Shown here piece after piece: positions 37,234 through 60,277 of a stretch of 64,000 nucleotides of DNA. The notes under the pieces were generated by a model. It did not search any database. It was not told the origin of the DNA and was given only the letters and a program-made list of their open reading frames with translations. Numbering within the stretch: the stretch's first letter is position 1; every line of letters starts with the position of its first letter. Origin of the DNA: Aquaticitalea lipolytica (GTDB lineage: Bacteria > Bacteroidota > Bacteroidia > Flavobacteriales > Flavobacteriaceae); assembly GCF_014641635.1 (NCBI RefSeq), contig NZ_BMIC01000001.1, positions 372,001 through 436,000 of the forward strand, given 5' to 3'. A program made the translations under genes and the position numbers.

Positions 37234-37249
37234 TATGATATAAATCATA
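37234..37249. promoter_or_regulatory. CRP/FNR-type site before ccoI
   Basis: TATGATATAAATCATA, a perfect palindrome with the TGA-N6-TCA core (37236-37247). Its centre is 36.5 bases upstream of the last G of the -7-like element at 37271-37278 (AACCTTTG), i.e. about -41.5 from the predicted start, the class II activator position. Confidence 0.75.
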
Positions 37250-37270
37250 TTTTAAGCTCATTTCATTTTT

Positions 37271-37278
37271 AACCTTTG
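37271..37278 (+). promoter_or_regulatory. -7-like element of ccoI
   Basis: AACCTTTG, one mismatch to TAnnTTTG; a weak promoter that fits the need for an activator at the palindrome upstream. Leader of about 22 bases. Confidence 0.55.
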
Positions 37279-37304
37279 CATTAGGTATAAATGAGCAAAT
37301 AATT

Positions 37305-39674
37305 ATGGAGCAACTCTCTTGTTTCCATTGTGGTGATAACTGCGATAAAAATGTAATTAATTTTCAAGAAAAAACATTCTGCTGTAATGGCTGTAAAACT
37401 GTTTATGAAATTTTCTCTGAAAATGATTTAACATGCTATTACGACTTACAATCATCACCTGGAGCAATTCCAAAAGACATTGAAGGAAAATACGACTTCC
37501 TAACTCAACAAAACATAATAGATAAGCTTGTAGAGTTTGATGATGGTAATATGCAAATTATCAATCTTTTTATTCCTCATATTCATTGTAGTTCATGTAT
37601 ATGGATACTTGAAAATTTAAATAAACTCAATAAAAACATTTCTTTATCACAAGTTGATTTTGGTAAAAAATCGGTTCGTATTCATTACAACTCTAAAGCC
37701 TATTCACTAAAAGAGGCTGTAGTATTATTAAGCTCAATTGGTTATGAGCCATATATAAGTCTTGATGATTTTTCAGCTGGAAAAAAGCAGGTTAGTAGAA
37801 CTTTAATTTATAAACTAGGAATAGCTGGATTTGCTTTCGGAAATGTGATGTTTTTATCATTTCCAGAGTATTTTGAGGTTGGTGAATTTTGGTTAGAACA
37901 ATACAAACCGCTCTTTAGATGGTTAATGTTTGCATTTTCATTACCTGTAGTATTTTATGCATCTCAAGATTATTTTATTTCAGCATACAAAGGGCTACGT
38001 GCTAGAATATTAAATATTGATGTACCTATTGCCTTAGGAATAGTTGTTTTATTCATAAGAAGTACCATAGACATTGCATTCGATTTGGGCTCTGGTTTTT
38101 TTGATAGTTTAACAGGATTAGTTTTCTTTTTGCTACTAGGAAAGTTTTTTCAGCAAAAAACCTATTCTTTTTTATCTTTTGAACGCGACTATAAGTCCTA
38201 TTTCCCAATTGCTGTAACCAAAATAACGTCAGAGGGCGAAGTACCCATTCAAGTATATGAAATTGTAAAAGGTGACCGAATTCTTATCAGAAATGAAGAA
38301 TTGATTCCTGTTGATGGAATACTAATTAGTGGCAATGCAAAAATTGATTACAGTTTTGTAACAGGTGAGTCTAAAACTATTTCAAAAAAATCTGGAGACA
38401 AGTTATTTTCTGGTGGAAAGCAGACTTCTGGAGTTATTGAAATGGAAGCCATAAAAACCGTTGAGCAAAGCTATCTTACACAATTATGGAGCAATGATGT
38501 CTTTACAAAAGCAAAAGAAGATGGCTTTACAACGCTCACCAACACCATTAGTAAGCGTTTTACAATAGCTGTATTAAGCATTGCTTTTATTTCTACTACT
38601 TATTGGTTATTTACAGATGCATCTGTTGCAATGAATGTATTCACTTCGGTGTTAATTATTGCTTGTCCTTGCGCTATAGCTTTAGCAGCTCCTTTTACAT
38701 TAGGAAATTTACTACGCATTTTTGGGAAACAAAAATTCTACCTCAAAAATGCCATTGTAATAGAACAATTAGCAGCTATCAATACTATTATTTTTGATAA
38801 AACAGGTACTATAACATCTAACAAAAAAAGCACTGCAACTTATGATGGTATAACACTTTCAAAAGATGAAGAGTTACTGTTAAAAAATACATTACGTGGC
38901 TCAAATCATCCATTAAGTAGAACACTTTATGAGCTTTTAAAAGAGCATGATATAATTACACTAGATCAGTTTGAAGAACATCTAGGCAAAGGGATTGAAG
39001 CTACTCATAAAGAAAATAAGATTAAAATTGGTTCAGCTGGTTTTGTAGGTTCATCAGACACTTCTGTTTTAAATACTACTGTTCATATTAGCTCTAATAA
39101 TACTTACAAGGGAAAATTTACATTTTATAATAGCTATCGTAAAGGTTTATCAAAATTATTTAATAAGCTAAAAAGGCAATTCGACTTGGTTATTCTTTCA
39201 GGAGATAATGAAGGTGAATTAGAAAATTTGAAAAAAATGCTGCCTTCAAAAACAAAAATGTTATTCAACCAAAAGCCTGAAGACAAGCTAGAATATATTA
39301 AATACCACCAAAGTGAAGGTGCTAAAGTTTTAATGATAGGTGACGGATTGAATGATGCTGGAGCATTAGCACAAAGCAATGTTGGTATAGCCATATCAGA
39401 AAATGTTAATGTATTCTCTCCTGCTTGTGACGCTATTTTAGACGCAAGTCAATTCAACAAACTTAGCAGTTTTATAAATGCTTCTAAATCAGCTATAAAT
39501 ATTGTTAAATGGAGTTTTGCTTTGTCATTTATATATAATGTTATTGGGCTTTATTTTGCTGTAACTGGACAATTAGCACCTGTAATTGCAGCTATTTTAA
39601 TGCCTTTGAGTTCTATTAGCGTGGTTGTATTTACCACATTCGCAACAAATTTTATAGGCAGAAGATTAAAATGA
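37305..39674 (+). CDS. ccoI: Copper-transporting P-type ATPase for cbb3 oxidase (CcoI)
   Basis: 789 residues. P1B ATPase that exports copper for assembly of cbb3 oxidase. N-terminal cysteine-rich metal-binding part (CFHCGDNCDK, TFCCNGCKTVYE) plus a heavy-metal-associated CxxC (HCSSCIWI); membrane CPC motif near residue 455 (IACPCAIAL); phosphorylation motif DKTGT near 498; GDGLNDAGAL near 678. The N-terminal domain and its location beside ccoS/ccoN distinguish it from a detoxifying CopA. It is preceded by an FNR-type site and followed by ccoS 80 bases later, which has its own such site. Confidence 0.94.
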   Translation: MEQLSCFHCGDNCDKNVINFQEKTFCCNGCKTVYEIFSENDLTCYYDLQSSPGAIPKDIEGKYDFLTQQNIIDKLVEFDDGNMQIINLFIPHIHCSSCIWILENLNKLNKNISLSQVDFGKKSVRIHYNSKAYSLKEAVVLLSSIGYEPYISLDDFSAGKKQVSRTLIYKLGIAGFAFGNVMFLSFPEYFEVGEFWLEQYKPLFRWLMFAFSLPVVFYASQDYFISAYKGLRARILNIDVPIALGIVVLFIRSTIDIAFDLGSGFFDSLTGLVFFLLLGKFFQQKTYSFLSFERDYKSYFPIAVTKITSEGEVPIQVYEIVKGDRILIRNEELIPVDGILISGNAKIDYSFVTGESKTISKKSGDKLFSGGKQTSGVIEMEAIKTVEQSYLTQLWSNDVFTKAKEDGFTTLTNTISKRFTIAVLSIAFISTTYWLFTDASVAMNVFTSVLIIACPCAIALAAPFTLGNLLRIFGKQKFYLKNAIVIEQLAAINTIIFDKTGTITSNKKSTATYDGITLSKDEELLLKNTLRGSNHPLSRTLYELLKEHDIITLDQFEEHLGKGIEATHKENKIKIGSAGFVGSSDTSVLNTTVHISSNNTYKGKFTFYNSYRKGLSKLFNKLKRQFDLVILSGDNEGELENLKKMLPSKTKMLFNQKPEDKLEYIKYHQSEGAKVLMIGDGLNDAGALAQSNVGIAISENVNVFSPACDAILDASQFNKLSSFINASKSAINIVKWSFALSFIYNVIGLYFAVTGQLAPVIAAILMPLSSISVVVFTTFATNFIGRRLK

Positions 39675-39686
39675 ATAAAAATAACC

Positions 39687-39708
39687 AAACATGATAAATG
39701 TCATGTTT
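39687..39708. promoter_or_regulatory. CRP/FNR-type site before ccoS-ccoNOQP
   Basis: AAACATGA / TCATGTTT, perfect 8-base arms around TAAATG; TGA-N6-TCA core at 39692-39703. Its centre is 36.5 bases from the last G of TAATTTTG at 39727-39734. Confidence 0.78.
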
Positions 39709-39726
39709 TAACAAAGTGTTCAAATG

Positions 39727-39734
39727 TAATTTTG
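39727..39734 (+). promoter_or_regulatory. -7 element of the cbb3 oxidase operon
   Basis: TAATTTTG matches TAnnTTTG; predicted start about 16 bases before the ccoS ATG. Confidence 0.65.
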
Positions 39735-39754
39735 AGCCATAACTTCAATAAGGT

Positions 39755-39937
39755 ATGAGTGTTATATATATTTTATTAACAATCAGTATTATAGTAGCCA
39801 TCGTGTTCTTTGTAGCATTCATTTTTGCTGTAAAGAATGGTCAATATGATGACAGCTATACACCTTCGGTTAGAATGCTTTTTGAAGATGAACTCGTAAA
39901 AGAGAAAACAAAAAAACCAATACAATCTAAAGACTAA
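39755..39937 (+). CDS. ccoS: cbb3 oxidase assembly protein CcoS
   Basis: 60 residues: one membrane helix (YILLTISIIVAIVFFVAFIFAV) followed by the CcoS pattern (KNGQYDDSYTPSVRMLFEDE). CcoS is needed to insert cofactors into cbb3 oxidase. Eleven bases separate it from the fused ccoNO gene, so it is the first gene of the oxidase operon. Confidence 0.92.
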   Translation: MSVIYILLTISIIVAIVFFVAFIFAVKNGQYDDSYTPSVRMLFEDELVKEKTKKPIQSKD

Positions 39938-39948
39938 TCAGAATCATT

Positions 39949-42138
39949 ATGGAAGTACAACAGTTTTATTACGATAATAAAATCGTTAAAAATTTTATTT
40001 ATGCCACTATCTTTTGGGGAATTATAGGCATGACTGTAGGCTTAATGCTAGCTTTTCTTTTTATTTTTCCAAACTACATGGAAGGCATTTCATGGCTTAG
40101 TTTTGGTCGTTTAAGACCATTACATACCAATGCTGTAATTTTCGCCTTTGTTGGAAATGCCATTTTTGCAGGTGTTTATTATTCTACACAGCGTTTGCTA
40201 AAAGCCAGAATGTTTAGCGATTTATTAAGTAAAATTAACTTTTGGGGATGGCAACTTATTATTGTTGGAGCTGCCATAACATTACCATTAGGTTATACAA
40301 CATCTAAAGAGTATGCAGAATTAGAATGGCCTTTTGATATTGCTATTGCATTAATTTGGGTTGTTTTTGGTTGGAATCTTATAGGTACTATCTTAAAACG
40401 ACGTCAACGTCACTTGTATGTAGCTATATGGTTTTATATCGCAACGTTTGTAACTGTTGCTGTACTTCATATTTTTAATAGTTTAGAGCTACCTGTAAGT
40501 GGTTTAAAAAGCTATTCTGTTTATGCTGGTGTACAAGATGCTTTGGTACAATGGTGGTATGGCCATAATGCTGTTGCATTTTTCTTAACTACACCATTTT
40601 TGGGTCTTATGTATTATTTTGTTCCTAAAGCTGCAAACAGACCTGTTTATTCATACAGGCTTTCTATAGTTCACTTTTGGTCTTTAATATTTATTTACAT
40701 CTGGGCAGGACCACATCACTTGTTGTATACTGCTTTACCAGAATGGGCTCAAAATTTAGGAGTTGCCTTTTCTGTTATGTTATTAATGCCTTCTTGGGGA
40801 GGAATGATTAACGGACTCTTAACTCTACGTGGAGCTTGGGATAAAGTACGTGTTGATCCTGTTCTCAAATTCATGGTAGTGGCAATTACTGGTTATGGTA
40901 TGGCAACTTTTGAAGGTCCAATGCTATCACTTAAAAACGTAAACGCTATTGCACACTTTACCGATTGGATTATTGCTCACGTTCATGTTGGAGCATTAGC
41001 TTGGAACGGGTTTTTAACTTTTGGTATGATTTACTGGTTAGTGCCTAGATTGTTCAAAACTAAATTACACTCTGTAAAACTTGCCAACTTACATTTCTGG
41101 ATAGGCACTTTAGGTATCATATTATATGCATTACCAATGTATGTTGCTGGATTTACACAAGCAAGTATGTGGAAACAATTTAGACCTGACGGCAATTTGG
41201 TTTATGGTAACTTTTTAGAAACTGTAACTGAAATTATGCCAATGTACTGGATGCGTGCCATTGGAGGAACACTATTTATTATTGGTATGCTAATTTTAGT
41301 TTATAACATATTTGTAACTGTAAAAAATGCAAGTAAAGTTGAAGATGAACTAGCAGAAGCTCCTGCATTAGAACGTGTTTCTAAAAAACGTGTTGCTGGT
41401 GAAGGGTGGCACACTTGGCTAGAGCGTAAACCAATCCAGCTTACAATTTTAGCTACTATAGCAATATTAATTGGTGGTATAATACAAATTGTACCAACTA
41501 TAATGGTAAAATCTAATATACCAACAATTAGTAGTGTACAACCATATACTCCACTTGAGTTAGAAGGTAGAGATATTTATATTCGTGAAGGTTGCGTTGG
41601 ATGTCATTCACAAATGATAAGACCATTTCGTAGTGAAGTAGCTCGATATGGAGAATATTCAAAAGCTGGTGAATATGTTTATGACCATCCTTTTTTATGG
41701 GGAAGTAAACGTACAGGACCAGACTTACATAGAATTGGTGGTAAATATTCAGATAACTGGCACTTTAATCATATGTACGACCCACAAAGTACATCTTCAG
41801 GCTCTATAATGCCATCATATCAATGGTTAATTAGAAGCGAGTTAGACAAATCACAAACTGAATCTAAAATGAAAGTAATGGTAAAATTAGGTGTACCATA
41901 TACAGATGAAGATATTGCAAATGCTCAAAAGCAAATGCTAGAACAAGGTACCAAAATAGAACAAAACCTTTATAGTGATCCAGATTTTGTTACTGCTTAT
42001 GAAAACGATAAGAAGAACTCAGGTGAAGATTTTGTAGAAATGAAAAACAGAGAAATTGTAGCACTTATTGCTTATTTACAACGTCTAGGAACAGATATAA
42101 AAGTTAAAGATTTAGAAGATCAAACAACTCAAAATTAA
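39949..42138 (+). CDS. ccoNO: Fused cbb3 cytochrome oxidase subunits I and II (CcoN-CcoO)
   Basis: 729 residues, a fusion usual in Bacteroidota. The CcoN part (about 1-470, 12 membrane helices) has the low-spin haem His (LHTNAVIF), the CuB His region (WWYGHNAVAFF), HHLLY and the HVHVG haem pair. A linker helix (ILATIAILIGGIIQIVP) leads into the CcoO part with one haem c site at about 549-553 (GCVGCHSQMIRPF) and the downstream Met ligand region. High-affinity terminal oxidase that reduces O2 at low oxygen and pumps protons. Confidence 0.96.
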   Translation: MEVQQFYYDNKIVKNFIYATIFWGIIGMTVGLMLAFLFIFPNYMEGISWLSFGRLRPLHTNAVIFAFVGNAIFAGVYYSTQRLLKARMFSDLLSKINFWGWQLIIVGAAITLPLGYTTSKEYAELEWPFDIAIALIWVVFGWNLIGTILKRRQRHLYVAIWFYIATFVTVAVLHIFNSLELPVSGLKSYSVYAGVQDALVQWWYGHNAVAFFLTTPFLGLMYYFVPKAANRPVYSYRLSIVHFWSLIFIYIWAGPHHLLYTALPEWAQNLGVAFSVMLLMPSWGGMINGLLTLRGAWDKVRVDPVLKFMVVAITGYGMATFEGPMLSLKNVNAIAHFTDWIIAHVHVGALAWNGFLTFGMIYWLVPRLFKTKLHSVKLANLHFWIGTLGIILYALPMYVAGFTQASMWKQFRPDGNLVYGNFLETVTEIMPMYWMRAIGGTLFIIGMLILVYNIFVTVKNASKVEDELAEAPALERVSKKRVAGEGWHTWLERKPIQLTILATIAILIGGIIQIVPTIMVKSNIPTISSVQPYTPLELEGRDIYIREGCVGCHSQMIRPFRSEVARYGEYSKAGEYVYDHPFLWGSKRTGPDLHRIGGKYSDNWHFNHMYDPQSTSSGSIMPSYQWLIRSELDKSQTESKMKVMVKLGVPYTDEDIANAQKQMLEQGTKIEQNLYSDPDFVTAYENDKKNSGEDFVEMKNREIVALIAYLQRLGTDIKVKDLEDQTTQN

Positions 42139-42144
42139 ACCATT

Positions 42145-42333
42145 ATGTTAAAATTCGTAAAAAACCATATGGAGAGTATTACTGGAATTGAAATATATCC
42201 AATAATCTCCCTACTCATATTCTTTACTTTTTTTGTAGTACTATTTTGGTGGGTTTTCACAGCCAAAAAAGAGTATATCAATAAAGTAAGTAACATCCCT
42301 TTAGATAACCAACAAAACGACACTATATTATGA
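42145..42333 (+). CDS. cbb3 oxidase small subunit (CcoQ-like)
   Basis: 62 residues with a single membrane helix (IISLLIFFTFFVVLFWWVFTA) and a short polar tail. Its size, topology and place between ccoNO and ccoP identify it as the CcoQ/FixQ-type subunit. Its stop overlaps the ccoP start (ATGA). Sequence similarity to CcoQ is weak, as normal for this subunit. Confidence 0.82.
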   Translation: MLKFVKNHMESITGIEIYPIISLLIFFTFFVVLFWWVFTAKKEYINKVSNIPLDNQQNDTIL

Positions 42334-43229: not shown

Positions 43230-43232
43230 ATA

Positions 43233-50131: not shown

Positions 50132-50230
50132 GTGTATAATTTTAATTGAAAATAAGATTGATAATATCCTGCTCACTTAAATTAATTAAGCAAGAAAATG
50201 TAAAATCATAAAGATTTTAAATCTAAAAAA

Positions 50231-50626
50231 TCAACTAAAATTTGGTGGAGGTGTATCGATTTCTAAATAGGTTTCGATAGTATTTTGTAAATAAAAATTA
50301 GGTGTGTTTTTATGTTCAGATAATGAAAACCCTTGTGTTTCGGTTATTCTAATTTGAAACCAGCAGAAGACATCTAAAGACAATCGTCTAGTTTCTTGAG
50401 CTGGTAAATCGGAATTAGATTCTGGTGTACTTTGTTTGAGTTCTTTTGTTAATTGACACTTACCATTACAACCTTGCTGGTTATCTTTCTGTACACATAA
50501 GTTTTTTGCTATTATTGCTTGATTAACCATAAAATCACCAATAATAACCAGTGTATTTATATTATGCGCAAATAATATAAATACAAGTAAAAATGCTGTT
50601 ATCTTATTAGTGATGGCTGAAATCAT
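50231..50626 (-). CDS. Small protein with CxGxC motif, copper-import unit
   Basis: 131 residues: a hydrophobic N-terminal segment (ITAFLLVFILFAHNI), a Cys-rich stretch (CVQKDNQQGCNGKCQLTKELKQ), then a polar tail ending IDTPPPNFS. Small proteins with a CNGKC-like motif are common before copper or TonB genes in Flavobacteriaceae, but no function is known. It is the first gene behind the FNR-type promoter at 50662. The predicted transcription start falls on the ATG itself, so the mRNA may be leaderless. Confidence 0.72.
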   Translation of the reverse strand: MISAITNKITAFLLVFILFAHNINTLVIIGDFMVNQAIIAKNLCVQKDNQQGCNGKCQLTKELKQSTPESNSDLPAQETRRLSLDVFCWFQIRITETQGFSLSEHKNTPNFYLQNTIETYLEIDTPPPNFS

Positions 50627-50630
50627 ATTG

Positions 50631-50638
50631 CAAATATA
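50631..50638 (-). promoter_or_regulatory. -7 element of the copper-import unit
   Basis: Minus strand TATATTTG matches TAnnTTTG; the last G (50631) is five bases before the ATG at 50626. Confidence 0.65.
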
Positions 50639-50661: not shown

Positions 50662-50673
50662 TGACAATTGTCA
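50662..50673. promoter_or_regulatory. CRP/FNR-type site before the copper-import unit
   Basis: TGACAATTGTCA, a perfect palindrome with the TGA-N6-TCA core. Its centre is 36.5 bases from the last G of the -7 element at 50631. Confidence 0.75.
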
Positions 50674-50686: not shown

Positions 50687-51469
50687 TTAAAAATCTTTTT
50701 TCTTTGATTTGAATACAATTCTTAAAATTGGCAATACAACCCATAAAACAAGTGTTGCAAACGAAACTACAAGTCCAAAGTTAGTACCAAAAAACTGCTT
50801 AAAAACAGCTCCTGTATAACCTAATAATGCAGAAATATCTAATTTTAATAATATAAGTGTTCTTGATAAATCAATTGGGTTTAACATTGTCCCAAAAAGA
50901 GATAATTTGTCTAAAGGATAATCTTCAAACATAATTAAGGTCATTAAAAATATACCATCATAAATAATGGCTAGGAATAACCAAAGTAAAATAGCATACC
51001 CAAAACCTTTAATTTTATTTTCATTAGATAAAGCAATATTAAAGGCTAAAGCAGTAAATATTAAGGTTAGAAAAACACCTGTAATTAATAGTAATGAAAA
51101 GTCCCAAATAGCACTACTTTTAAACAACCCATAAAACACAAATGGGATACCTAATCCTAATATTAAACTCATTGAGAGTGATAATGCCACACCTAGATAT
51201 TGTCCTAAAAATATTGAAGAACGCTTTAAAGGTTGTGCTAATAAAAGTTCGGTAAATTCTTTTGAGTTATAGTAATACATTACACCAAAAATGGTTCCTA
51301 TTAAAGGTACGAGAACTATTATTACATTCATTAAAGTGATAACAGCTTTTGATAAATCATTATTTAAAAACAATAATACAATACCAAGTAATAAATAGAA
51401 TGCAAAGTACACGTAACTCCATCGACTACGCATAAGATCGTAAAAACTATATTTTAATATTTTAAGCAT
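50687..51469 (-). CDS. nosY: ABC-type permease NosY
   Basis: 260 residues with about six membrane helices in the ABC-2 permease pattern (SYVYFAFYLLLGIVLLFL, LIGTIFGVMYYYNSKEFTELLLAQPLKRSSIFLGQYLGVA). Partner of NosF in the NosDFY complex that supplies copper or sulfur for the CuZ centre of nitrous oxide reductase. Overlaps nosF by 8 bases. Last gene of the nos operon; no clear terminator lies before the next promoter. Confidence 0.92.
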   Translation of the reverse strand: MLKILKYSFYDLMRSRWSYVYFAFYLLLGIVLLFLNNDLSKAVITLMNVIIVLVPLIGTIFGVMYYYNSKEFTELLLAQPLKRSSIFLGQYLGVALSLSMSLILGLGIPFVFYGLFKSSAIWDFSLLLITGVFLTLIFTALAFNIALSNENKIKGFGYAILLWLFLAIIYDGIFLMTLIMFEDYPLDKLSLFGTMLNPIDLSRTLILLKLDISALLGYTGAVFKQFFGTNFGLVVSFATLVLWVVLPILRIVFKSKKKDF

Positions 51470-52169
51470 GATTATTAGTTAATATAGACGCTATTGCATG
51501 CTCAAAATCTGGCTGCTTGGTCTTGGTTTTTAATTCTGAAATAGAGCCTTTAAAGTATATTTTACCTTCTAACAAGAACACAATCTCATCAGATACTTCT
51601 TCAACAAAACTCATAATATGTGATGTTATTAAAATGGTTTTTCCTTTGGCTTTTTCAGCTTGAATTAAATCTTTTAATCTGATTAATGAAATTGGATCTA
51701 AACCAGAAGTTGGCTCATCTAAAATAACTAAAGGACTATCAAACATAAAAGTTAAAACTATATTCACTTTTTGCTTTGTTCCTCCTGATAGATTACCTAG
51801 TTTCTTATCTAAAAAAGGTGTTAACTTAAACAAGTCTATTAACTGTTCATCAATTGTTGTATTACCTCTTAAATCTTTAATCATCTTAATTAACTCCTTA
51901 ACTCTTAAATTACTTGGAAAGTTTGCAATCTGAGGTAAGTAGTCTATTTTATGTCTGTAATTAGATCCTTTTTTAATATTTTCTCCAAGTACGTCTATAT
52001 TACCTTTATCTGGAATAACCATTCCTAAAACACACTTAATTAATGTTGTTTTACCAGAGCCATTTGGCCCAAGAACAGCAAAAATTCCGCCTTTATTGAT
52101 ATTTAAATCAACACCACTTAAAACCTCATTTTTGCCAAATTTTTTATGTAAATTTTGAATACTTACCAT
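51462..52169 (-). CDS. nosF: ABC-type ATPase NosF
   Basis: 235 residues with Walker A (GPNGSGKTTL), signature (LSGGTKQKV), Walker B (VILDEPTSGLDP) and H-loop (ITSHIM). It powers the NosDFY complex. Overlaps both nosD (7 bases) and nosY (8 bases), so translation is coupled. NosF identity rests on its operon as well as its sequence. Confidence 0.94.
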   Translation of the reverse strand: MVSIQNLHKKFGKNEVLSGVDLNINKGGIFAVLGPNGSGKTTLIKCVLGMVIPDKGNIDVLGENIKKGSNYRHKIDYLPQIANFPSNLRVKELIKMIKDLRGNTTIDEQLIDLFKLTPFLDKKLGNLSGGTKQKVNIVLTFMFDSPLVILDEPTSGLDPISLIRLKDLIQAEKAKGKTILITSHIMSFVEEVSDEIVFLLEGKIYFKGSISELKTKTKQPDFEHAIASILTNNHA

Positions 52170-53398
52170 GTTATTTTTTTAATTAGAGGGTTATTATCCA
52201 GCAAATTATCTGGCGTAAAAACAGGAGAAACCTTTTCAGAGAAATCTATTATATCAATAAACAAACTGCGAAGTAGAATTATAGTTTCTGGAGTTCGGTT
52301 TACTATATATGAAAACAGTTTAACTGGTCTGTAAGGCACATCACCAACACCATCTTTATCGAGATCATAACCAGTATAATTGCTCCAATAGTTTCTATCG
52401 AAAATATTATCATTTACATTACTATTATATGAAATATCAAAGGAGTTATACAAAAAATTATTTTCTATGAAACTGTTAGTATAACAAGCTCCACGGACTT
52501 TAATAGCCCAGCCGTTATTAATGAAATTGTTATTTTTATATGTAATACGGTTAGAGCCTTCAATATTTATCCCAATAGTATTTTCTTCAAAAGTATTTCC
52601 AATAATTTCGGCATCATTAATCTCTTTTAAAAGCATTCCGTAAGATGCAGTTCCCCAATTTTCTTTAAAAGTGTTATTAGTCATTTTTATTTTCTTTGAA
52701 AACATCACAGCCACTCCTGCTCCATTATTTTCAAAGGTATTGTCGCAATACTCATCATTATTAGAAAACATAAAGTGCAAACCATAGCGAAGGTTTAATG
52801 CGCTAACATTGTTTTTTATTAGGCAATCATCAGAGAATTCTAAATAAATTCCGTCGCGAACATGCTCAACGTAATTATGTTCAATTTCTATATGGTTACT
52901 GTACCAAAGCTGGATACCATTTCCTGAATTATACTCTTCAACAGCATCACCAATTATTTTGTTATGATATACTTTTCCGTAGCTAGATTTTTCAAGATAA
53001 ATTCCAAAAAATAGTTTTTCTAATACCAAATTCTGAATTACAAAATGTTTGCTTCTTCTAACTCGAATAGCAGCATAATCTTCAGTATAACTTGTGCCTA
53101 CATTTATGATAAATAACCCATCAACAGTAACATTATCTGAAACAATTGTTATTATTTCTCCTTTTAACTCGCCATCAATTACAGGGTAATTTTTTCCTAT
53201 AATAGTTAAAGGCTTATCGATAATAATATTATGCTCTTTATAAGTTCCTTTTTTAACAATGATAGTATCAAAGTCTTTAGCTATGGTAATTGCTTTTTTT
53301 AAAGTTGAAATTTCACAAGTATTACAAACTTCAATATTTTGTGCATAGCTAGAAAATGCCATTAAAATGACCACTAAAAAAACAAGTTGCTTTTTCAT
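52163..53398 (-). CDS. nosD: Periplasmic copper-site maturation protein NosD
   Basis: 411 residues from the ATG at 53398, chosen because it starts a clean signal peptide (MKKQLVFLVVILMAFSSYAQ); an ATG at 53410 overlaps nosL. The mature part is a right-handed parallel beta-helix with many NosD/CASH repeats (NIIIDKPLTIIGKNYPVIDG, NGIQLWYSNHIEIEHNYV, DGIYLEFSDDCLIKNNV, NNTFKENWGT). NosD is the periplasmic part of NosDFY and receives copper from NosL. Standard place in the operon. Confidence 0.95.
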   Translation of the reverse strand: MKKQLVFLVVILMAFSSYAQNIEVCNTCEISTLKKAITIAKDFDTIIVKKGTYKEHNIIIDKPLTIIGKNYPVIDGELKGEIITIVSDNVTVDGLFIINVGTSYTEDYAAIRVRRSKHFVIQNLVLEKLFFGIYLEKSSYGKVYHNKIIGDAVEEYNSGNGIQLWYSNHIEIEHNYVEHVRDGIYLEFSDDCLIKNNVSALNLRYGLHFMFSNNDEYCDNTFENNGAGVAVMFSKKIKMTNNTFKENWGTASYGMLLKEINDAEIIGNTFEENTIGINIEGSNRITYKNNNFINNGWAIKVRGACYTNSFIENNFLYNSFDISYNSNVNDNIFDRNYWSNYTGYDLDKDGVGDVPYRPVKLFSYIVNRTPETIILLRSLFIDIIDFSEKVSPVFTPDNLLDNNPLIKKITW

Positions 53399-53402
53399 GA
53401 TG

Positions 53403-53840
53403 CTAGTCATTAAAATGAACTAATAACTCTTCCCAAGAATACAAATCGCCTCCTTTTTCAGATTGCATTTTTTCGGCATCAGCTTTATTTTTAAATGCTG
53501 AAAGATATGCTCCCATTGGGCTCGGAATATTTTTACTAATTAAAAAAGTAGCTCTCTTGGCATCAATAAGCTGCTCTGGTTCTGTGTAGTTATTAGATAA
53601 ATAAAGTTCAATTTCTGATGCATCAAAATCATTCATAAAATTGATCATACATTCTGTAGCATCAAATTTATAAACTTTACCTTTTTTGGTTACAATTTCT
53701 GCAGCATGTACTTTATCTACAATGGTCATTTTACAAAAATGACAGCCATCACTTCCGTAATCAATAGCTTGTGGTGATACATTACAGCTGACTAGCATCA
53801 ACAATAATGCAATAATTAAATAGTGTTTTAGTGTTTGCAT
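53403..53840 (-). CDS. nosL: Copper chaperone NosL (lipoprotein)
   Basis: 145 residues; lipid Cys19 (MLVSCNVS), then the NosL copper motif C33-x2-C36-x-M38 (GCHFCKMTI) and the conserved FDATECMINF region. Delivers copper to NosD for building CuZ in NosZ. Its stop is 4 bases before the nosD start. An odd 15-base direct repeat (53821-53835 and 53846-53860) flanks its start codon. Confidence 0.94.
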   Translation of the reverse strand: MQTLKHYLIIALLLMLVSCNVSPQAIDYGSDGCHFCKMTIVDKVHAAEIVTKKGKVYKFDATECMINFMNDFDASEIELYLSNNYTEPEQLIDAKRATFLISKNIPSPMGAYLSAFKNKADAEKMQSEKGGDLYSWEELLVHFND

Positions 53841-53860
53841 GATTTTAGTGTTTTAGTGTT
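53821..53860 (-). repeat. 15-base direct repeat around the nosL start codon
   Basis: AACACTAAAACACTA on the minus strand occurs exactly at 53846-53860 (leader) and 53821-53835 (codons 2-7), ten bases apart with the ATG between. Confidence 0.85.
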
Positions 53861-53871
53861 TTTTATCCTCT

Positions 53872-54471
53872 CTACATAGTCAATTTTTTATTATGCTTTT
53901 TCTTCCCAACTAAATAGGCAATAAAAGATGTTGCTATACCTAGAGCTAAAAACAAAGTGCCTAGTCTAGGATATGAATGTGCTTTAAAATTTAATATATC
54001 CTTACTACCAAATAATGGTGGTTGAAAACCCATTTGTGTTCCGTCAGGGTTAGTAAACTTCATAATAGCTTTAGGGTCTAAATTATGACCATAATCATGT
54101 TCCCATAAATAAAAGTCGTATAAACCTGCACTGCTTAATAATATCATTAGTATAAACCAATACAAGAACCATTTATAGTTACCGAAAAAGGCAATTATTA
54201 CTCCAATTATAGTTGTTATAATAATTCCTGCTGGGAATATTTTAAATTCTGGAATTGCATCAGGAATATACTTCATTCCAACATAGTGATTCATAAGATT
54301 GATGTTTTTGATGTCATGCGGATTGGCATCAGAAAAATCATTAATGTGAATATACATTCCTAATGGAGTTGGATATTGAGGTGCTTCCAATGTAATTTTC
54401 CAAAGTGGAAATAAGAATAGTCCCAAAGGTAAAATCGCTGCAAGGAGCATAATGATATTTGACTTTTTCAT
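53872..54471 (-). CDS. nos-cluster membrane protein (NosB-like by position)
   Basis: 199 residues with four or five membrane helices (IIMLLAAILPLGLFLFPLW, AGIIITTIIGVIIAFFGNYKWFLYWFILMILL, LGTLFLALGIATSFIAYLVG) and a periplasmic loop with His/Met residues (NLMNHYVGMKYIPDA, LWEHDYGHNLDPKAIMKF). It follows nosZ as nosB does in epsilonproteobacterial clade II clusters. The role is unknown, perhaps in electron supply or copper handling. A strong hairpin separates it from nosZ. Confidence 0.7.
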   Translation of the reverse strand: MKKSNIIMLLAAILPLGLFLFPLWKITLEAPQYPTPLGMYIHINDFSDANPHDIKNINLMNHYVGMKYIPDAIPEFKIFPAGIIITTIIGVIIAFFGNYKWFLYWFILMILLSSAGLYDFYLWEHDYGHNLDPKAIMKFTNPDGTQMGFQPPLFGSKDILNFKAHSYPRLGTLFLALGIATSFIAYLVGKKKHNKKLTM

Positions 54472-54526
54472 CCTTCTGTTTTGTTAGTAATTTAAATTCA
54501 ATTTTTGGGTGCAGTGTTTTTAAAAG

Positions 54527-54560
54527 AAAGGCGAGAGCGAAAAAAACTACTCTCGCCTTT
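54527..54560 (-). terminator. Hairpin after nosZ (partial terminator)
   Basis: Perfect 11-base GC-rich stem (AAAGGCGAGAG / CTCTCGCCTTT) with a 12-base loop, followed on the minus strand by CTTTTAAAAA. It lies inside the nos operon between nosZ and the maturation genes. Confidence 0.7.
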
Positions 54561-54602
54561 GATAGGAAAATAAACACTAAAACAAAATTCTCCTAACTTG
54601 TT

Positions 54603-56570
54603 TTATTCTATATCTTCTCCTAATGACCATTTTAATGGTGTATTTGCATTAGCTGCAGATACACGAACATAACCTTGCATTTCTTGGTGTAAAGCAGAAC
54701 AGAAATCTGTACAATAGAAAGGCCATACACCTACTTGTTTAGGTTCCCATAAGAAGGTTTCTGTTTGACCAGGCATTATAAGTAGCTCTGATGTGTTTGC
54801 TCCAATCATACTTATACCATGAGGTACATCGTAATCTTGTTCTAAATTCGTGACATGGAAATACACTTTATCTCCTACTCTTATACCTTCAATATTATCA
54901 GGCGAAAAGTGGCTTCTAATTGTTGTCATATAAACGTGTACTATGTTTCCACTTCTAACAACTTTTGTATCAGCCTCACTTTTAGCTGCATAAGGATGCT
55001 TGTTGTCTTCTAAATTGAATATTTTTTTAGAACGAGGTTTAATCAAATCTGCAGGACAACCAGCGGCATAGTGTGGCTCTCCAATTGTTGGAAAATCGAG
55101 TAACAGTTCCATTTTATCTCCAGAAATATCATAGAGTTGAGCAGATTGTGTGACTTCAGGCCCAGTTGGTAAATATCTATCTTTAGTAATTTTATTCATT
55201 GCAACTACATATTTTCCGAAAGGTTTTTGTGAATTTCCTCCAGGAATCATTAAGTGTCCAACAGAATAATAACAAGGTTGTCTATCTACCACTTCCCAAG
55301 TACCAAGCTTCCATTTTACAACTTCAGATGAAATAAAGAAAGTAGTATATGCATTACCTTTTCCATCAAACTCTGTATGTAAAGGACCTAATCCTGGTTG
55401 CTCTACTGAACCTGCTAAAACATCTTCAAAGTTTAAGATTGGAATTCCGTAAGCTTCACCAGCAAATTTTTTGTTTTCAATTGCACTTAACATTTTAGTA
55501 AATGAGTGTACAGTTAAGTTTGCTGAAAGTTTACCATTACCTACAATATACTCACCAGTTGGATCGACATCGCAACCATGTGGAGATTTTGGAGTTGGTA
55601 AGAAATAAACTGCTCCAGGAACATCTAAAGGATTAACAACTCTAACTTCTTTTTTCATTGTAGATGTAGCTGTATGAGTCTCTTCATCATAAACGTTATG
55701 AGCATAGTTTGCAGGCATCATTTCTCCTCCTCCATTATTTACATACTCTTCAATTTTTTTCCAGTTTACTGCAGCAATAAAATCTTTATCGTTTTGAGAT
55801 GAGTTGACTTCCATTAATGTGCTAGCTTCTTCTGTATTATAAGTTGTAAAGAAGAACCATCCGTGAGATTTTCCACGTCCTGGGTGAGATAAATCGTAAT
55901 CGAATCCTGGCATTATTAATTGAAATTTAATATCCATTCGGCCATCATCTGGATCTACAGAAATAAAAGATAAAGACCCTTTAAAGTTTCCTTTATAATC
56001 TTTTATAGGCATATCTCTTTGCGGAATTGGCACAGAAAAACGAGTTCCAGCAACTACATACTCAGTATTTTCAGTTACGAAAGATGAACTATGGTTACCA
56101 GCACTATTAGGTATTTCAATAATCTCGGTAGTTTCAAAAGTTGATAAATCAATTTTTGCTATACGAGGTGTATTATTACCGTTTATAAATACCCAACGAC
56201 CATCAATTTCACCATTAGTTTGAGAAATATCTGGATGGTGAGCGTCATCCCATGGCACAAATCCATGAGACGTGTTTAACATTGGTTTTGTTTCTTCGTT
56301 ATATCCATAAGCTTTTTCTGCATCTTGTGAAAACACAGGAATTACTTTAAATAAACGTCCAGATGGTAATCCGTAAACAGATAATTGCCCACTGAAACCT
56401 CCAGAAATGAAAGCATAAAATTCGTCATGCTCACCTGGAGCAACATACACCTTTTCGGCTGCATTAGAGCTCAATGCTCCATTAGACTTTGATGATTTTC
56501 CATCATTACAACTTGTAAAGGCTATAGCAATGACTAAAAATCCGATAGAAATTTTAAAAAGATTTTTCAT
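54603..56570 (-). CDS. nosZ: Nitrous oxide reductase, clade II lipoprotein type
   Basis: 655 residues. Reduces N2O to N2 with electrons from cytochrome c. N-terminus is a Sec lipoprotein signal (VIAIAFTSCNDGK) without the twin-arginine motif of clade I. A seven-bladed propeller carries the CuZ His residues (GFVPWDDAHHPDIS, SPHGCDVDP, LGPLHTEFDGKG, EPHYAAGC); the C-terminal cupredoxin holds the CuA site C620-x3-C624-x3-H628-x2-M631 (FYCTDFCSALHQEM). It is the first nos-specific gene after cytochrome c and fasciclin genes. No other denitrification gene is in the window. Confidence 0.97.
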   Translation of the reverse strand: MKNLFKISIGFLVIAIAFTSCNDGKSSKSNGALSSNAAEKVYVAPGEHDEFYAFISGGFSGQLSVYGLPSGRLFKVIPVFSQDAEKAYGYNEETKPMLNTSHGFVPWDDAHHPDISQTNGEIDGRWVFINGNNTPRIAKIDLSTFETTEIIEIPNSAGNHSSSFVTENTEYVVAGTRFSVPIPQRDMPIKDYKGNFKGSLSFISVDPDDGRMDIKFQLIMPGFDYDLSHPGRGKSHGWFFFTTYNTEEASTLMEVNSSQNDKDFIAAVNWKKIEEYVNNGGGEMMPANYAHNVYDEETHTATSTMKKEVRVVNPLDVPGAVYFLPTPKSPHGCDVDPTGEYIVGNGKLSANLTVHSFTKMLSAIENKKFAGEAYGIPILNFEDVLAGSVEQPGLGPLHTEFDGKGNAYTTFFISSEVVKWKLGTWEVVDRQPCYYSVGHLMIPGGNSQKPFGKYVVAMNKITKDRYLPTGPEVTQSAQLYDISGDKMELLLDFPTIGEPHYAAGCPADLIKPRSKKIFNLEDNKHPYAAKSEADTKVVRSGNIVHVYMTTIRSHFSPDNIEGIRVGDKVYFHVTNLEQDYDVPHGISMIGANTSELLIMPGQTETFLWEPKQVGVWPFYCTDFCSALHQEMQGYVRVSAANANTPLKWSLGEDIE

Positions 56571-56596
56571 TATATATATGTTTAAGTGTTTAAAAA

Positions 56597-57166
56597 TTAA
56601 TTTTCTGGTAATATGACTTTATCTACTACATGAACAATACCATTACCAGCAGATATACTAGCAACAATTCTTGCTCCACCAACATAAACATCGTCACCTT
56701 TAACCTCAACTTTTACATTTTGGTTACTTGCCTGACCTAGTTGTTTAAATTTCTTTAAAAAGTCTTTTGAATAATTCCCAGGTGTAACATGATGCTTTAA
56801 AATAAGTGCTAATTGATCTTTGTTTTCTGGTTTTAAGAGGTTATCGACTGTACCTTCTGGCAAAGCAGCAAAAGCTTCGTTAGTAGGAGCAAAAACCATT
56901 AAAGGCCCAGCATTTACTAATGCATTTTCTAATTGTGCTGCTTGTACTGCAGCTACTAAAGTGGAATGGTCTTTAGACCCAATTGCTATTTGTAACACAT
57001 TAGGAGTAGACTCATCATCTGTTATAAAAGCTTGTCCTTGTTTATTATCAGTTTGTGTTTCAACTGTTGGGCTCGTTGTATCTTCTTGTCCTTCAGAATT
57101 GTTTTTACAGTTTAAAAACAGTGCTAAAGTTGAAGCAATTAATAAAAATTTGTGATTAGTTTTCAT
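56597..57166 (-). CDS. Fasciclin-domain lipoprotein in the nos operon
   Basis: 189 residues; lipoprotein signal (LALFLNCKNN), a Thr/Gln-rich linker, then one fasciclin (FAS1) domain (STLVAAVQAAQLENAL, MVFAPTNEAFAALPEGTV, LALILKHHVTPG, GNGIVHVVDKVILP). FAS1 domains bind other proteins. Between cytochrome c and nosZ with 25-30 base gaps, it may dock cytochrome c to NosZ at the membrane; this is inference from position. Confidence 0.92.
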   Translation of the reverse strand: MKTNHKFLLIASTLALFLNCKNNSEGQEDTTSPTVETQTDNKQGQAFITDDESTPNVLQIAIGSKDHSTLVAAVQAAQLENALVNAGPLMVFAPTNEAFAALPEGTVDNLLKPENKDQLALILKHHVTPGNYSKDFLKKFKQLGQASNQNVKVEVKGDDVYVGGARIVASISAGNGIVHVVDKVILPEN

Positions 57167-57197
57167 TGGTTTTATAGTTTTAGTTATTAATCAGAAA

Positions 57198-57701
57198 TTA
57201 TAACGATCTGAAGTATTCTAAAACAGCTCTAGCTTCCTCTTCTGTAAGATTTTGGTTAGCCATTGGCGAGCCATTAAATTCAATAAGTAATTCTTTAGCC
57301 AAAGGGTCTTTTTCAACCATTTCATTTGGGTTTAAAATCATATTCATAACCCATTCTGGAGTTCTACGCTCTAAAATTCCTTTTGGTGATGGACCAATAA
57401 ATTTTTTGTCTGCCTTGTGACAAGCTGTACACATTTTTTTAAATACTTCTGCTCCATGAGCTACCATTGTTTGGTCTAATTCTGGAGACAGAGCAAGCGA
57501 CTTAATTGGACCTACACCTTTATTGGTTAAGTCTACTTTTTGCGAAGCAGGTGTATTAGATACTGCTTTTGTTTCAACTTTTTGTTCAGTTGAAGTGTTA
57601 TTCTCGTAAGTGAAACCTTCACTCTTTTTTTCTTCTTTACCACCACAACTCATAAGTAGTGCAAGAATAAATACAGCTAAAATTTTTAGTGCTTTTTTCA
57701 T
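57198..57701 (-). CDS. Monohaem cytochrome c lipoprotein of the nos operon
   Basis: 167 residues; lipoprotein signal (LALLMSCGGK), a low-complexity linker of about 45 residues, then a class I cytochrome c domain with C91-TA-CH95 and a Met ligand candidate near the end (NGSPMANQNL). Probably the direct electron donor to NosZ. First gene of the operon, behind an FNR-type site, an Rrf2-type site and a good -7 element. Confidence 0.92.
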   Translation of the reverse strand: MKKALKILAVFILALLMSCGGKEEKKSEGFTYENNTSTEQKVETKAVSNTPASQKVDLTNKGVGPIKSLALSPELDQTMVAHGAEVFKKMCTACHKADKKFIGPSPKGILERRTPEWVMNMILNPNEMVEKDPLAKELLIEFNGSPMANQNLTEEEARAVLEYFRSL

Positions 57702-57723
57702 AATTTAAATTGATTTAATAACA

Positions 57724-57731
57724 CAAAATTA
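57724..57731 (-). promoter_or_regulatory. -7 element of the nos operon
   Basis: Minus strand TAATTTTG matches TAnnTTTG; leader of about 18 bases before the ATG at 57701. Confidence 0.7.
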
Positions 57732-57753
57732 AACCCTATGCTCATGAAAAAAC

Positions 57754-57767
57754 ATGATAAATATCAT
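57754..57767. promoter_or_regulatory. CRP/FNR-type site before the nos operon
   Basis: ATGAT-AAAT-ATCAT, a perfect palindrome with the TGA-N6-TCA core (57755-57766). Its centre is 36.5 bases from the last G of the -7 element (57724). Confidence 0.78.
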
Positions 57768-57769
57768 AT

Positions 57770-57789
57770 TTAGGATATTTTTGTCCTAA
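57770..57789. promoter_or_regulatory. Rrf2-type site before the nos operon
   Basis: TTAGGA-N8-TCCTAA, perfect arms. The block TTAGGATATTTTTGTCCTAA closely matches the one before rrf2. It lies directly upstream of the FNR-type site, centred about -60 from the predicted start. Confidence 0.7.
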
Positions 57790-57812
57790 TTAAAAACAGC
57801 ACATATAAAACA

Positions 57813-57840
57813 GAAAAAGCTGGACTTTGTCCAGCTTTTA
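57813..57840 (-). terminator. Terminator after universal stress protein gene
   Basis: Eleven-base perfect stem (AAAAGCTGGAC / GTCCAGCTTTT) with a 3-base loop and T tract on the minus strand. Confidence 0.85.
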
Positions 57841-57902
57841 TACACTTTATAAAATACTAACTAATACATTTTAATAAAAAGTGCTGTTCTGTAAATAAAT
57901 TT

Positions 57903-58742
57903 TTACTTCATTATTTTAAATGTCATTACTGGTAAGTTAGCATGGTTTGCTAAATCTTCAGAAATACTTCCTTCAAAAAAATGTGCTAATCCTGTTCTAC
58001 CATGTGTTGGTATTGCAACTAAATCTGCATTTACTTTTTTAGCAAAGCTTAAAATTCCTTTTTCAACAGTAACATCAGCTACATAATTTACATCTTTTAA
58101 TTTTTCGTAATTGCCATCTGCTCTAAAAAGAAAATCCTTAACTGTAGATTCCATTTCAGTTGAACTTTTAAAACTCTCACCTGGTAAGTTTACATATAAC
58201 AATAACAAATTAGTAGTGTTAGAGTTAAACATCTTTGAAGCATTAATATATGCTGTAACTGCTTCGCTAGAAAAATCACAAGCAAATACTACAGTATTAA
58301 AGTCCATTTTTGTTGGTTTGTTTTTAACTACTAAGACTGGTATACTAGAATGTCTTACTACTCTTTCAGTATTAGAGCCAACAAAAATCTCAGTTAATCC
58401 ACTTGCTCCATGAGAGCCCATAACTATTAAATCTACACTATGCTCTTTTGCTACTTCATTAACCTCACTAAATACTTTGAAATGTTTTACAATTGGAATA
58501 ACATCTACTCCTTTTAGGTAATCTTTATCCAAAAAGTCTTCAAATTTTTGCTCAGCCAGCTTTAAAAAAAAGATAGCTTTAGCATTTTGTTCGTTATCTG
58601 CTTTAGTTAAAAGCGCATCAGACATTTCTAACATATGCAAAGCCAAAATTTCTGCACCATGTTTTTTTGCTAAAATGGAAGCTGCCTCCATTGCATATTC
58701 TGAATGTTTTGAAAAATCTACAGGTACAATTATTTTTTTCAT
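57903..58742 (-). CDS. Universal stress protein with two UspA domains
   Basis: 279 residues, two tandem UspA domains (1-147 and 150-279). The first has the ATP-binding pattern G-x2-G-x9-G-S/T (MGSHGASGLTEIFVGSNTERVV); the second keeps a related form (IPTHGRTGLAHFFEGSISEDL). USPs of this kind are often induced by low oxygen or starvation. Located between the nos operon and hemN, so a link to low-oxygen growth is likely, but no FNR-type site is seen before it. Confidence 0.93.
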   Translation of the reverse strand: MKKIIVPVDFSKHSEYAMEAASILAKKHGAEILALHMLEMSDALLTKADNEQNAKAIFFLKLAEQKFEDFLDKDYLKGVDVIPIVKHFKVFSEVNEVAKEHSVDLIVMGSHGASGLTEIFVGSNTERVVRHSSIPVLVVKNKPTKMDFNTVVFACDFSSEAVTAYINASKMFNSNTTNLLLLYVNLPGESFKSSTEMESTVKDFLFRADGNYEKLKDVNYVADVTVEKGILSFAKKVNADLVAIPTHGRTGLAHFFEGSISEDLANHANLPVMTFKIMK

Positions 58743-58850
58743 TTTTTTAAAATTTTAGTGTTTGATTATTTTTTAATTTCTATATATAAGGTAGTGATTT
58801 TTAAGCAGAAACACAATTAACTTTAGCGCTTTAATGTTTAATTAACAGTA

Positions 58851-60215
58851 TTAAATAGTCATTGAAAACAATTGTGTTTTTGGTTGATTACGTTGCAATA
58901 ACAAATCGAAAGCCATACATATATTTCTAACAAAAGGTTTGCCTTTTTCTTTAATAATTATTTGATTTGATTTAATTTCAATGAGTCCATCTACTTCCAT
59001 TTCAGTTAATTTTATTAATGTATCTGGTAATGACTCAAAATACAAATCATCATTACTCCAAGAGGTTTCAAACTGACACATTAAATTAAGAATATGGGTT
59101 CTTATAACTAAATCTTCCGAGTTTAAAACATGACCTCTATATACTGGTATAATATTTTCTTTTAGTAAATGATAATACTCCTCAATTCCTTTTACATTTT
59201 GCGCAAAACCAAACCAGCTATCACTTATGGCAGAAACACCAAGTCCAATCATGGCTTTAGTTTTTGAAGCAGTGTAACCCATAAAATTTCTATGAATGGT
59301 TTTATTTATTATCGATTTGTATAATGTATCTGTTTTTAATGCAAAATGATCCATTCCAATTTCATGATAACCAACTTCTGCTAATAACTTTTTACCAAGC
59401 TCATACTGATTTCTTTTTGATTCACCAGAAGGCAAATCGTTATCATTAAATCCTCTTTGTCCATTTCCTTTAATCCATGGAACATGTGCATAGCTATAAA
59501 ACGCAATTCTGTCTGGCATTAAAGATTTTGTTTTATTTATTGTTTCTCTCACATGCACTTCAGTCTGAAAAGGCAAACCAAAAATTATATCATGGCTTAT
59601 TGAAGTATAGCCTATTGCTCTTGCATGGTCAGTAACTCGTTTAACATTTTCAAAAGGTTGTATTCTATGTATTGCTTTTTGAACCGTTTCATTATAATCT
59701 TGCACACCAAAACTTACACGTCTAAATCCTAAATCGAATAAGGTTTGAAGGTGCTCATATGACGTATTATTTGGATGACCTTCAAAACTAAACTCATAAT
59801 CATCAGCTAGAGTAGATTTACTTGTAATGCCATTAATTAAATACTTTAGATTATTTGGAGAAAAAAAAGTAGGTGTACCACCACCAAGGTGCAATTCTTT
59901 AATTTTAGGTTTATCTTCAAAAAGGCTACAATATAATTCCCACTCCTTTAAAACTGCATCTATATAAGGTGTTTCTAACTCATGACGCTTTGTTATACGT
60001 TTGTGACATCCACAAAAAGTGCATAAACTTTCACAAAATGGTAAATGAATGTATAAGCTGATTCCTTCTAAATGGTTAGTTTCGTTAAAAGACTTAATTA
60101 ATGTTTCTTTCCATTCCTTTAATGAAAATGTATTATTGTCCCAATACGGAACTGTTGGATAACTAGTATACCTTGGGCCAGCTACATTATATTTATTTAT
60201 TAAAGAATCACTCAT
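58851..60215 (-). CDS. hemN: Oxygen-independent coproporphyrinogen III oxidase
   Basis: 454 residues. Radical SAM enzyme of haem synthesis that works without O2. Cluster ligands C61, C65 and C68 with the extra C70 (PFCESLCTFCGCHK), SAM region (LHLGGGTPTFFS), and the HemN C-terminal domain are all present. The start is the ATG at 60215; an ATG seven codons upstream (60236) falls inside the -7 promoter element and cannot be in the mRNA. An FNR-type site lies before it. Confidence 0.94.
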   Translation of the reverse strand: MSDSLINKYNVAGPRYTSYPTVPYWDNNTFSLKEWKETLIKSFNETNHLEGISLYIHLPFCESLCTFCGCHKRITKRHELETPYIDAVLKEWELYCSLFEDKPKIKELHLGGGTPTFFSPNNLKYLINGITSKSTLADDYEFSFEGHPNNTSYEHLQTLFDLGFRRVSFGVQDYNETVQKAIHRIQPFENVKRVTDHARAIGYTSISHDIIFGLPFQTEVHVRETINKTKSLMPDRIAFYSYAHVPWIKGNGQRGFNDNDLPSGESKRNQYELGKKLLAEVGYHEIGMDHFALKTDTLYKSIINKTIHRNFMGYTASKTKAMIGLGVSAISDSWFGFAQNVKGIEEYYHLLKENIIPVYRGHVLNSEDLVIRTHILNLMCQFETSWSNDDLYFESLPDTLIKLTEMEVDGLIEIKSNQIIIKEKGKPFVRNICMAFDLLLQRNQPKTQLFSMTI

Positions 60216-60233
60216 ACCTATTGTTATATAACA

Positions 60234-60241
60234 CAAAACTA
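60234..60241 (-). promoter_or_regulatory. -7 element of hemN
   Basis: Minus strand TAGTTTTG matches TAnnTTTG; leader of about 14 bases before the ATG at 60215. Confidence 0.65.
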
Positions 60242-60263
60242 ATCCTACTACAAATTTTAAAAT

Positions 60264-60277
60264 ATGACATTAATCAT
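60264..60277. promoter_or_regulatory. CRP/FNR-type site before hemN
   Basis: ATGA-CATTAA-TCAT with the TGA-N6-TCA core at 60265-60276; centre 36.5 bases from the last G of the -7 element. Confidence 0.75.

Follow-up and report, generated by a model that had tools for sequence, protein, structure and literature searches.

Fixed spacing of CRP/FNR-type operators before respiration genes of Aquaticitalea lipolytica, and a receiver–CRP fusion as their probable reader

In a 64,000-nucleotide stretch of the Aquaticitalea lipolytica genome (contig NZ_BMIC01000001.1, hereafter C1, positions 372001-436000; the window), five promoters for respiration and copper genes carry a TGA-N6-TCA palindrome at one fixed distance from the core promoter, and this spacing is both real and general. 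We interpret the palindromes as class II operators of the CRP/FNR superfamily, and consider it probable that in this genome they are read, on falling oxygen, by a receiver–CRP fusion protein (REC-CRP) under a FixL-like kinase.

All five palindromes named in a preliminary description of this DNA are where it put them. On the plus strand they precede ccoI (37236..37247, centre 37241.5, TGATATAAATCA, with one mismatch to the extended pattern) and ccoS-ccoNO (39692..39703, TGATAAATGTCA); on the minus strand they precede a small-protein/copper-receptor unit (50662..50673, TGACAATTGTCA), the nos operon (57755..57766, TGATATTTATCA as read on that strand) and hemN (60265..60276, TGATTAATGTCA, likewise). 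The -7 element TAnnTTTG is exact, and set 23 bases behind TCA, in four of the promoters: those of ccoS (39727..39734, TAATTTTG), the small-protein unit (50631..50638, TATATTTG), the nos operon (57724..57731, TAATTTTG again) and hemN (60234..60241, TAGTTTTG). The ccoI element (37271..37278, AACCTTTG, predicted start near 37283) keeps five of the six consensus letters. Measured on the strand of the gene, the palindrome centre and the final G of the -7 element are 36.5 bases apart in all five promoters, as had been claimed.

Taken alone, TGA-N6-TCA is not enriched in the window (28 observed against 23.5 expected), as would suit an origin by chance or by the composition of an AT-rich genome. The gap controls and the reversed-pattern controls contradict this account, and with the spacing so clearly rejected as accidental we give it a negligible probability. 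Exact pairs of palindrome and element in the window number four at gap 23 and at most one at any other gap between 5 and 45, and in 200 windows simulated with a first-order Markov model no single gap held more than two. A sixth palindrome, at 11544, has a five-of-six element at the equal distance but lies within an open reading frame (ORF), and its spacing is probably a chance match. The preliminary description had suggested a scan of the whole genome (3.14 Mb in 36 contigs). With a loose pattern and gaps of 8 to 38 this gave 61 matches, 11 of them at gap 23 against a mean of 1.67 at the other gaps; four of the 11 lie in the window, and the seven elsewhere all directly precede an ORF, with 18 to 24 nt from the G to the ATG. 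A fuller consensus with one mismatch allowed finds 16 sites in the genome against one for the reversed pattern; it replaced an earlier extended pattern with three mismatches, which was too loose (380 matches against 363 reversed).

The same spacing recurs among relatives. We surveyed 149 genomes of the class, which from its named relatives we take to be Bacteroidia in the sense of GTDB, and TGAY-N4-RTCA followed after 23 bases by TAnnTTTG has 528 matches there, against 16 for the reversed pattern; with a 21-base gap there are 44, in 42 of the genomes (counted by hand). At least one gap-23 match is present in 121 of the 149. In 80 named loci that encode REC-CRP (1.50 Mb), 118 pairs have gap 23 and between 0 and 9 have each other gap from 5 to 45. 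The spacing is strict across the regulon, and the controls in window, own genome, named loci and class agree at each level with the preliminary view that the geometry goes beyond chance. In a separate draw of 198 genomes over the phylum, matches occur in 46 of 49 genomes inside the class and in 38 of 149 outside it (58 matches in all over those 149, counted by hand), so the spacing rule is mainly a property of the class.

In Escherichia coli, class II activators occupy position -41.5. According to PMC9723704, the sigma-A box TAnnTTTG of Flavobacterium psychrophilum lies at -12 to -5 of mapped starts; if the last G is at -5 in A. lipolytica too, the palindrome centre would fall at -41.5, which fits the class II position proposed in the preliminary description. 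In a logo of the 118 gap-23 sites (loci L134-L213) the sequence is aa[C/A]TGAY-n-ww-T-R-TCAT, and behind it positions -32 to -30 form a tract rich in T. The final T of TCAT (position -35) is 97% conserved and its upstream counterpart is not; the downstream edge therefore holds more than the palindrome, and the T together with the T-rich tract may perhaps mark a polymerase contact. On the preliminary suggestion that the activator site takes the place of the -33 element, TTG at -33 is equally rare in 103 comparison promoters taken from the 80 named loci (1 of 103) and in the sites (2 of 118), and since the comparison promoters have no TTG peak at -33 they cannot serve to judge that position. Some CRP/FNR proteins repress, and the direction of control cannot be read from sequence. 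Repression from these sites is nonetheless very improbable, because so fixed a spacing (118 sites at gap 23, at most five at any other gap between 20 and 26) is what polymerase contact, and not steric repression, would lead one to expect. Moreover, the cbb3 oxidase of F. psychrophilum is strongly up-regulated when oxygen is limiting (PMC9723704).

To see what lies behind the sites in the class, we took a sample of 80 (from the genomes listed, the first three sites given for each). Behind 70 of them there is an ORF of 70 codons or more, and behind the other 10 none; the G-to-ATG distance has a median of 30 nt, with 50 sites within 60 nt and 56 within 120 nt. Family counts for the 70 ORFs are taken from Pfam, those from NCBIfam being inflated by overlapping models: Cytochrome_CBB3 occurs six times, COX1, FixO and Rhodanese four times each, Lactamase_B three times, and peroxiredoxin, universal stress protein (Usp) and HTH_Crp_2 twice each, while most of the ORFs have no family in common with another. 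At the 30 best-scoring ccoN loci of the class, the 23-base gap occurs with an exact -7 element in 14 and with a relaxed one in 26.

Some operators are doubled. Among 217 distinct sites (loci L134-L323 and L359-L388), a second palindrome starts exactly 22 bp upstream in 24 and 23 bp upstream in four; at any other offset from 12 to 110 there is at most one. Half of the ccoN loci with the exact gap-23 element (7 of 14) are tandem in this sense; examples among all the loci are L211, L300, L304, L313, L362 and L364. The second palindrome would centre at -63.5, giving a pair at -41.5/-63.5. It is absent at all five window sites.

The distribution of the 16 sites in the A. lipolytica genome points to a regulator. 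Five are those of the window, eight fall in a 21-kb stretch at C1:125.9-147.2 kb, and the remaining three precede genes for a hibernation factor (Ribosomal_S30AE), a Thioredoxin_9 protein and a pyridine nucleotide-disulphide reductase. Behind the sites of the 21-kb island stand three Usp genes, two of them recognized by Pfam and one by eye, an Hsp20 gene, genes for an MlaE permease, a patatin and a lipoprotein-like product (by eye), and an unassigned gene followed by a pyridoxamine-oxidase-like one. The regulon of respiration and copper genes proposed in the preliminary description does include those genes, and it is wider, taking in Usp, Hsp20, hibernation-factor, MlaE, patatin, thioredoxin-like and flavin reductase genes.

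Within the island, with half of the genome's sites (8 of 16) clustered around them, lie the genes of REC-CRP and its partner kinase. The genome has five HTH_Crp_2 matches (four above the Pfam cut-off, one weak); none is in the window, in agreement with the earlier observation that it holds no CRP/FNR gene. None of the five proteins has the FNR-type set of cysteines. The label 'FNR-type' thus suits the DNA site and not the CRPs of this genome, among which the best candidate is the receiver–CRP fusion, a protein of 351 amino acids (aa) that joins Response_reg, cNMP_binding and HTH_Crp_2 domains (C1:135.84-136.90 kb). The kinase (500 aa, PAS-PAS-HisKA) has a stop codon that overlaps the start of REC-CRP (TAATG). 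Its first PAS domain has FixL as best match in the PDB (1d06, E-value 2e-13), and two of its residues align with the proximal haem His and the distal Arg of FixL. Among 74 readable partner kinases, 66 keep the His position and 44 keep both His and Arg. In 20 aligned REC-CRP proteins (19 of 27 extracted from 30 loci, plus that of the window genome), the phospho-acceptor D52 and the conserved K104 are invariant, as are E317 and R321 of an E..R recognition helix of the type that goes with a TGA core. An AlphaFold model of REC-CRP (mean predicted local distance difference test 80, predicted template modelling score 0.39) shows, by secondary structure, a receiver, a jelly roll, a long helix and a winged helix-turn-helix (HTH), the arrangement of the domains being unreliable. 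The island also contains, as neighbours of the pair, genes for Usp, Hsp20, a beta-CASP nuclease, an ATP-cone protein, a pyridoxamine-oxidase-like protein, MlaE and patatin.

The association of sites with REC-CRP holds beyond this genome. Loci are found in Winogradskyella, Algibacter, Gelidibacter, Aquimarina, Arenibacter, Maribacter and others. Of 79 named loci, 44 have an exact site where the REC-CRP gene ends (from 60 bp before to 350 bp after its matched 3' end); by eye, the first residues of the ORF behind that site are mostly like those of a Usp. Both REC-CRP and ccoN are present in 54 class genomes, and in 16 of these the two are no more than 10 kb apart, a count lowered by contig breaks; in the window genome the distance is 275 kb. 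With kinship ignored, the average number of sites per genome is 0.88 where neither REC-CRP nor a stand-alone FNR-like protein is present (40 genomes), 3.75 with REC-CRP only (44, the group that includes the window genome), 3.56 with FNR only (34) and 6.68 with both (31). FNR was scored as present at a best-match exponent of -50 or lower; inspection led us to add G065 and G101 and to drop G057. Eleven families are mixed in this respect, and in every one the regulator-bearing genomes average more sites (sign test, p 0.001, kinship again ignored). In the window's own family, with its own genome set aside and by hand count, the 11 genomes with REC-CRP average 11.2 sites and the 7 without it 5.3.

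A stand-alone FNR-like protein is present in 34 of the 74 class genomes that lack REC-CRP. We compared the CRP/FNR proteins of eight REC-CRP-less genomes selected for having sites, and in each of them one stand-alone FNR-like protein carries a helix, GTATE[T/S]-x-IR, that closely resembles the one in REC-CRP. The cysteines, examined in these eight genomes and in the 28 readable sequences among the 30 best class matches to one stand-alone FNR, form the motif CX2CX7-8C in six of the eight (CX2C only in G134 and G065), and three N-terminal Cys are found in 23 of the 28. Sites are present in many REC-CRP-less genomes, also before ccoN (for example in G134 and G065), so REC-CRP is not required in general.

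These last sites are among several observations that weigh against REC-CRP and its kinase as an oxygen-responsive reader. Eight of the 74 partner kinases lack His at the haem position. The REC-CRP 3' end has no exact site in 35 of the 79 loci, including all of the distant L201-L213, five of the 44 REC-CRP-only genomes have no site at all, and among the 74 genomes that do have REC-CRP there are 20 in which no strong match to CcoN occurs. Conversely, 40 of the 74 genomes without REC-CRP also lack an FNR-like protein at the threshold used, and nine of these 40 nonetheless have at least two sites. Presence of either protein was called by an E-value threshold, and co-occurrence was counted across genomes irrespective of kinship. 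A palindrome before the kinase gene is followed by a -7-like AAACTTTG, but the gap is 18 bases instead of 23, so that we found no class II control there of the kinase/REC-CRP operon by its own product.

The genome also holds a second candidate, a cysteine-less FNR-like protein of 229 aa encoded at C1:715 kb with the helix GTAKESLVRML, and it might be this protein that reads the sites, REC-CRP being confined to the stress island. Its helix retains the E-x2-V-R pattern, and of three stand-alone CRPs of this genome that were compared, it most resembles the cysteine-bearing FNR of G104 (40% identity). Its gene lies near ApbE and thioredoxin-like genes, and in at least G134, G065, G101, G086 and G118 a stand-alone FNR-like gene is found no more than 10 kb from ccoN. 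We consider this unlikely, because there is no exact site in the 9 kb around the C1:715 gene, against eight of 16 around REC-CRP, and because the protein lacks the cysteine set for an Fe-S cluster. The REC-CRP/PAS kinase pair is the most likely regulator in this genome.

A broader alternative, which overlaps with our interpretation and to which we give somewhat less than an even chance, is that the sites, or the spacing, serve more than one CRP/FNR paralogue, the geometry being a property of the superfamily on this polymerase and not of a single regulator. An extra site, GTGA-N6-TCAC at C12:3511, has the same geometry before a metallo-beta-lactamase (MBL)/rhodanese gene about 1.9 kb from the gene of a different CRP; genes similar at the N-terminus follow gap-23 sites in L255, L257 and L270, Lactamase_B accounts for three of the 70 sampled ORFs, and the number of sites per genome is highest where FNR and REC-CRP are both present. 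The clustering of the genome's own sites at REC-CRP argues instead for one main reader here. As an observation in its own right, the CRP on C12 lies near MBL/rhodanese genes (L040, 1023-4979), where GTGA-N6-TCAC stands at the 23-base gap.

With REC-CRP as the reader, the system would work as follows. When oxygen falls, the PAS kinase, through a first PAS domain of the FixL-like haem type, would phosphorylate REC-CRP, a single protein in which a FixJ-like input is joined to a FixK/FNR-like output. A CRP/FNR-family dimer would then bind TGAY-N4-RTCA centred at -41.5, adjoining the sigma-A holoenzyme on TAnnTTTG, and the cco, nos, hemN and copper-uptake genes would be transcribed. Some relatives lack the fusion, and in some of these the same code may be read by a cysteine-bearing FNR that stands alone. 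For Bacteroidia as a whole, we lean slightly towards a picture of one cis code, at times in tandem, served by two interchangeable oxygen sensors, FNR or the haem-kinase/REC-CRP pair; lineages like that of the window would have swapped the sensor, kept the promoters and coupled low-oxygen and nitrous oxide (N2O) respiration to a dormancy-like stress island.

The genes behind the five window sites were assigned from Pfam and NCBIfam. On the plus strand, a ccoI-like gene (37305..39674) matches P-type ATPase families, the copper-specific models scoring below cut-off; ccoS (39755..39937; TIGR00847) and a ccoN-ccoO fusion (39949..42138; Pfam COX1 and FixO) are above cut-off. The other genes lie on the minus strand. 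The small-protein unit begins with a gene for 131 aa (50231..50626) that has no Pfam or NCBIfam match, and includes a YtkA-like gene (49286-50176, below the Pfam cut-off) and a TonB copper-receptor-like gene (47904-49217; TIGR01778, below cut-off). If a start five bases past the G is right, it falls on the A of the ATG of the small-protein gene, whose mRNA would be leaderless (50626-50638). The nos operon, which appears to span 50687..57701, comprises a cytochrome c gene (57198-57701), a further gene (56597-57166), a Sec-type NosZ gene (54603-56570; TIGR04246 above cut-off), another gene (53872-54471), a NosL-like gene (53403-53840, by eye, with no NCBIfam match), nosD (52163-53410; TIGR04247 above cut-off) and, by eye, genes for an ABC ATPase and a permease. 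The hemN gene, for an oxygen-independent coproporphyrinogen oxidase (58851..60215; TIGR00538 above cut-off), has its start placed by eye, most likely at the ATG at 60215 and not at the TTG at 60236. A Usp-like gene 3' of hemN (57903..58742, matches below the model cut-offs) possibly forms one unit with it, and could tie the regulon of the window to the Usp island on C1. The gene names of the preliminary description accordingly stand for ccoS, NosZ, NosD, hemN and ccoN/O, whose models pass their cut-offs; the copper-specific models for ccoI and the copper-receptor model do not.

The arrangement has parallels in several known systems. E. coli class II CRP and FNR promoters have a dimeric palindrome at -41.5, the position predicted here, and share the fixed spacing to the core promoter. 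The core here is instead the TAnnTTTG of the Bacteroidota sigma-A, and where the outer letters of E. coli sites are TTGAT for FNR and TGTGA for CRP, [A/C]TGAY..RTCAT is found here; a tract rich in T at -32 to -30 and a tandem variant predicted at -41.5/-63.5 are further differences. With FNR itself the system shares the E..R recognition helix, the kind of target and the TGA core of the site. FNR is a [4Fe-4S] oxygen sensor that uses three N-terminal cysteines plus one in the beta-roll; the CRPs of the window genome lack this set, whereas cysteine-bearing FNR-like proteins occur in relatives. The FixL-FixJ-FixK system of rhizobia shares a FixL-like PAS kinase, an output of FNR type and cbb3 and nos genes as putative targets. 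FixJ consists of a receiver and a LuxR-type HTH and switches on a separate fixK; here, by contrast, receiver and CRP/FNR-type body are directly joined in one protein, encoded beside the kinase. The DosR dormancy regulon of mycobacteria, which the island resembles in content, places Usp, Hsp20 and hibernation-factor-type genes under a haem-based two-component system, as is proposed here, but DosR is LuxR-type, whereas the regulator in the cluster described here has HTH_Crp_2, and the operators are unrelated. The best PDB match to a REC-CRP profile (residues 149-350) is CrpPg of Porphyromonas gingivalis (2gau), a stand-alone protein that has no receiver; the CrpPg paper (PMC12040651) does not use the term 'class II'.

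Among the top-ranked results of searches of the open-access literature, we found neither this geometry nor an oxygen system of the kinase/REC-CRP kind described, and no account of how CRP/FNR activators sit on the divergent Bacteroidota core promoter. A spacing fixed over much of the class provides a ready rule for recognizing direct CRP/FNR targets in these bacteria, the N2O reductase operon included. If the REC-CRP/FixL-like pair acts as proposed, it would be a new arrangement for sensing oxygen, in which the sensor was replaced over a conserved set of operators. The mechanism is most likely that of class II activation, in the setting of a divergent promoter and with a sensor arrangement that is probably new in this lineage.

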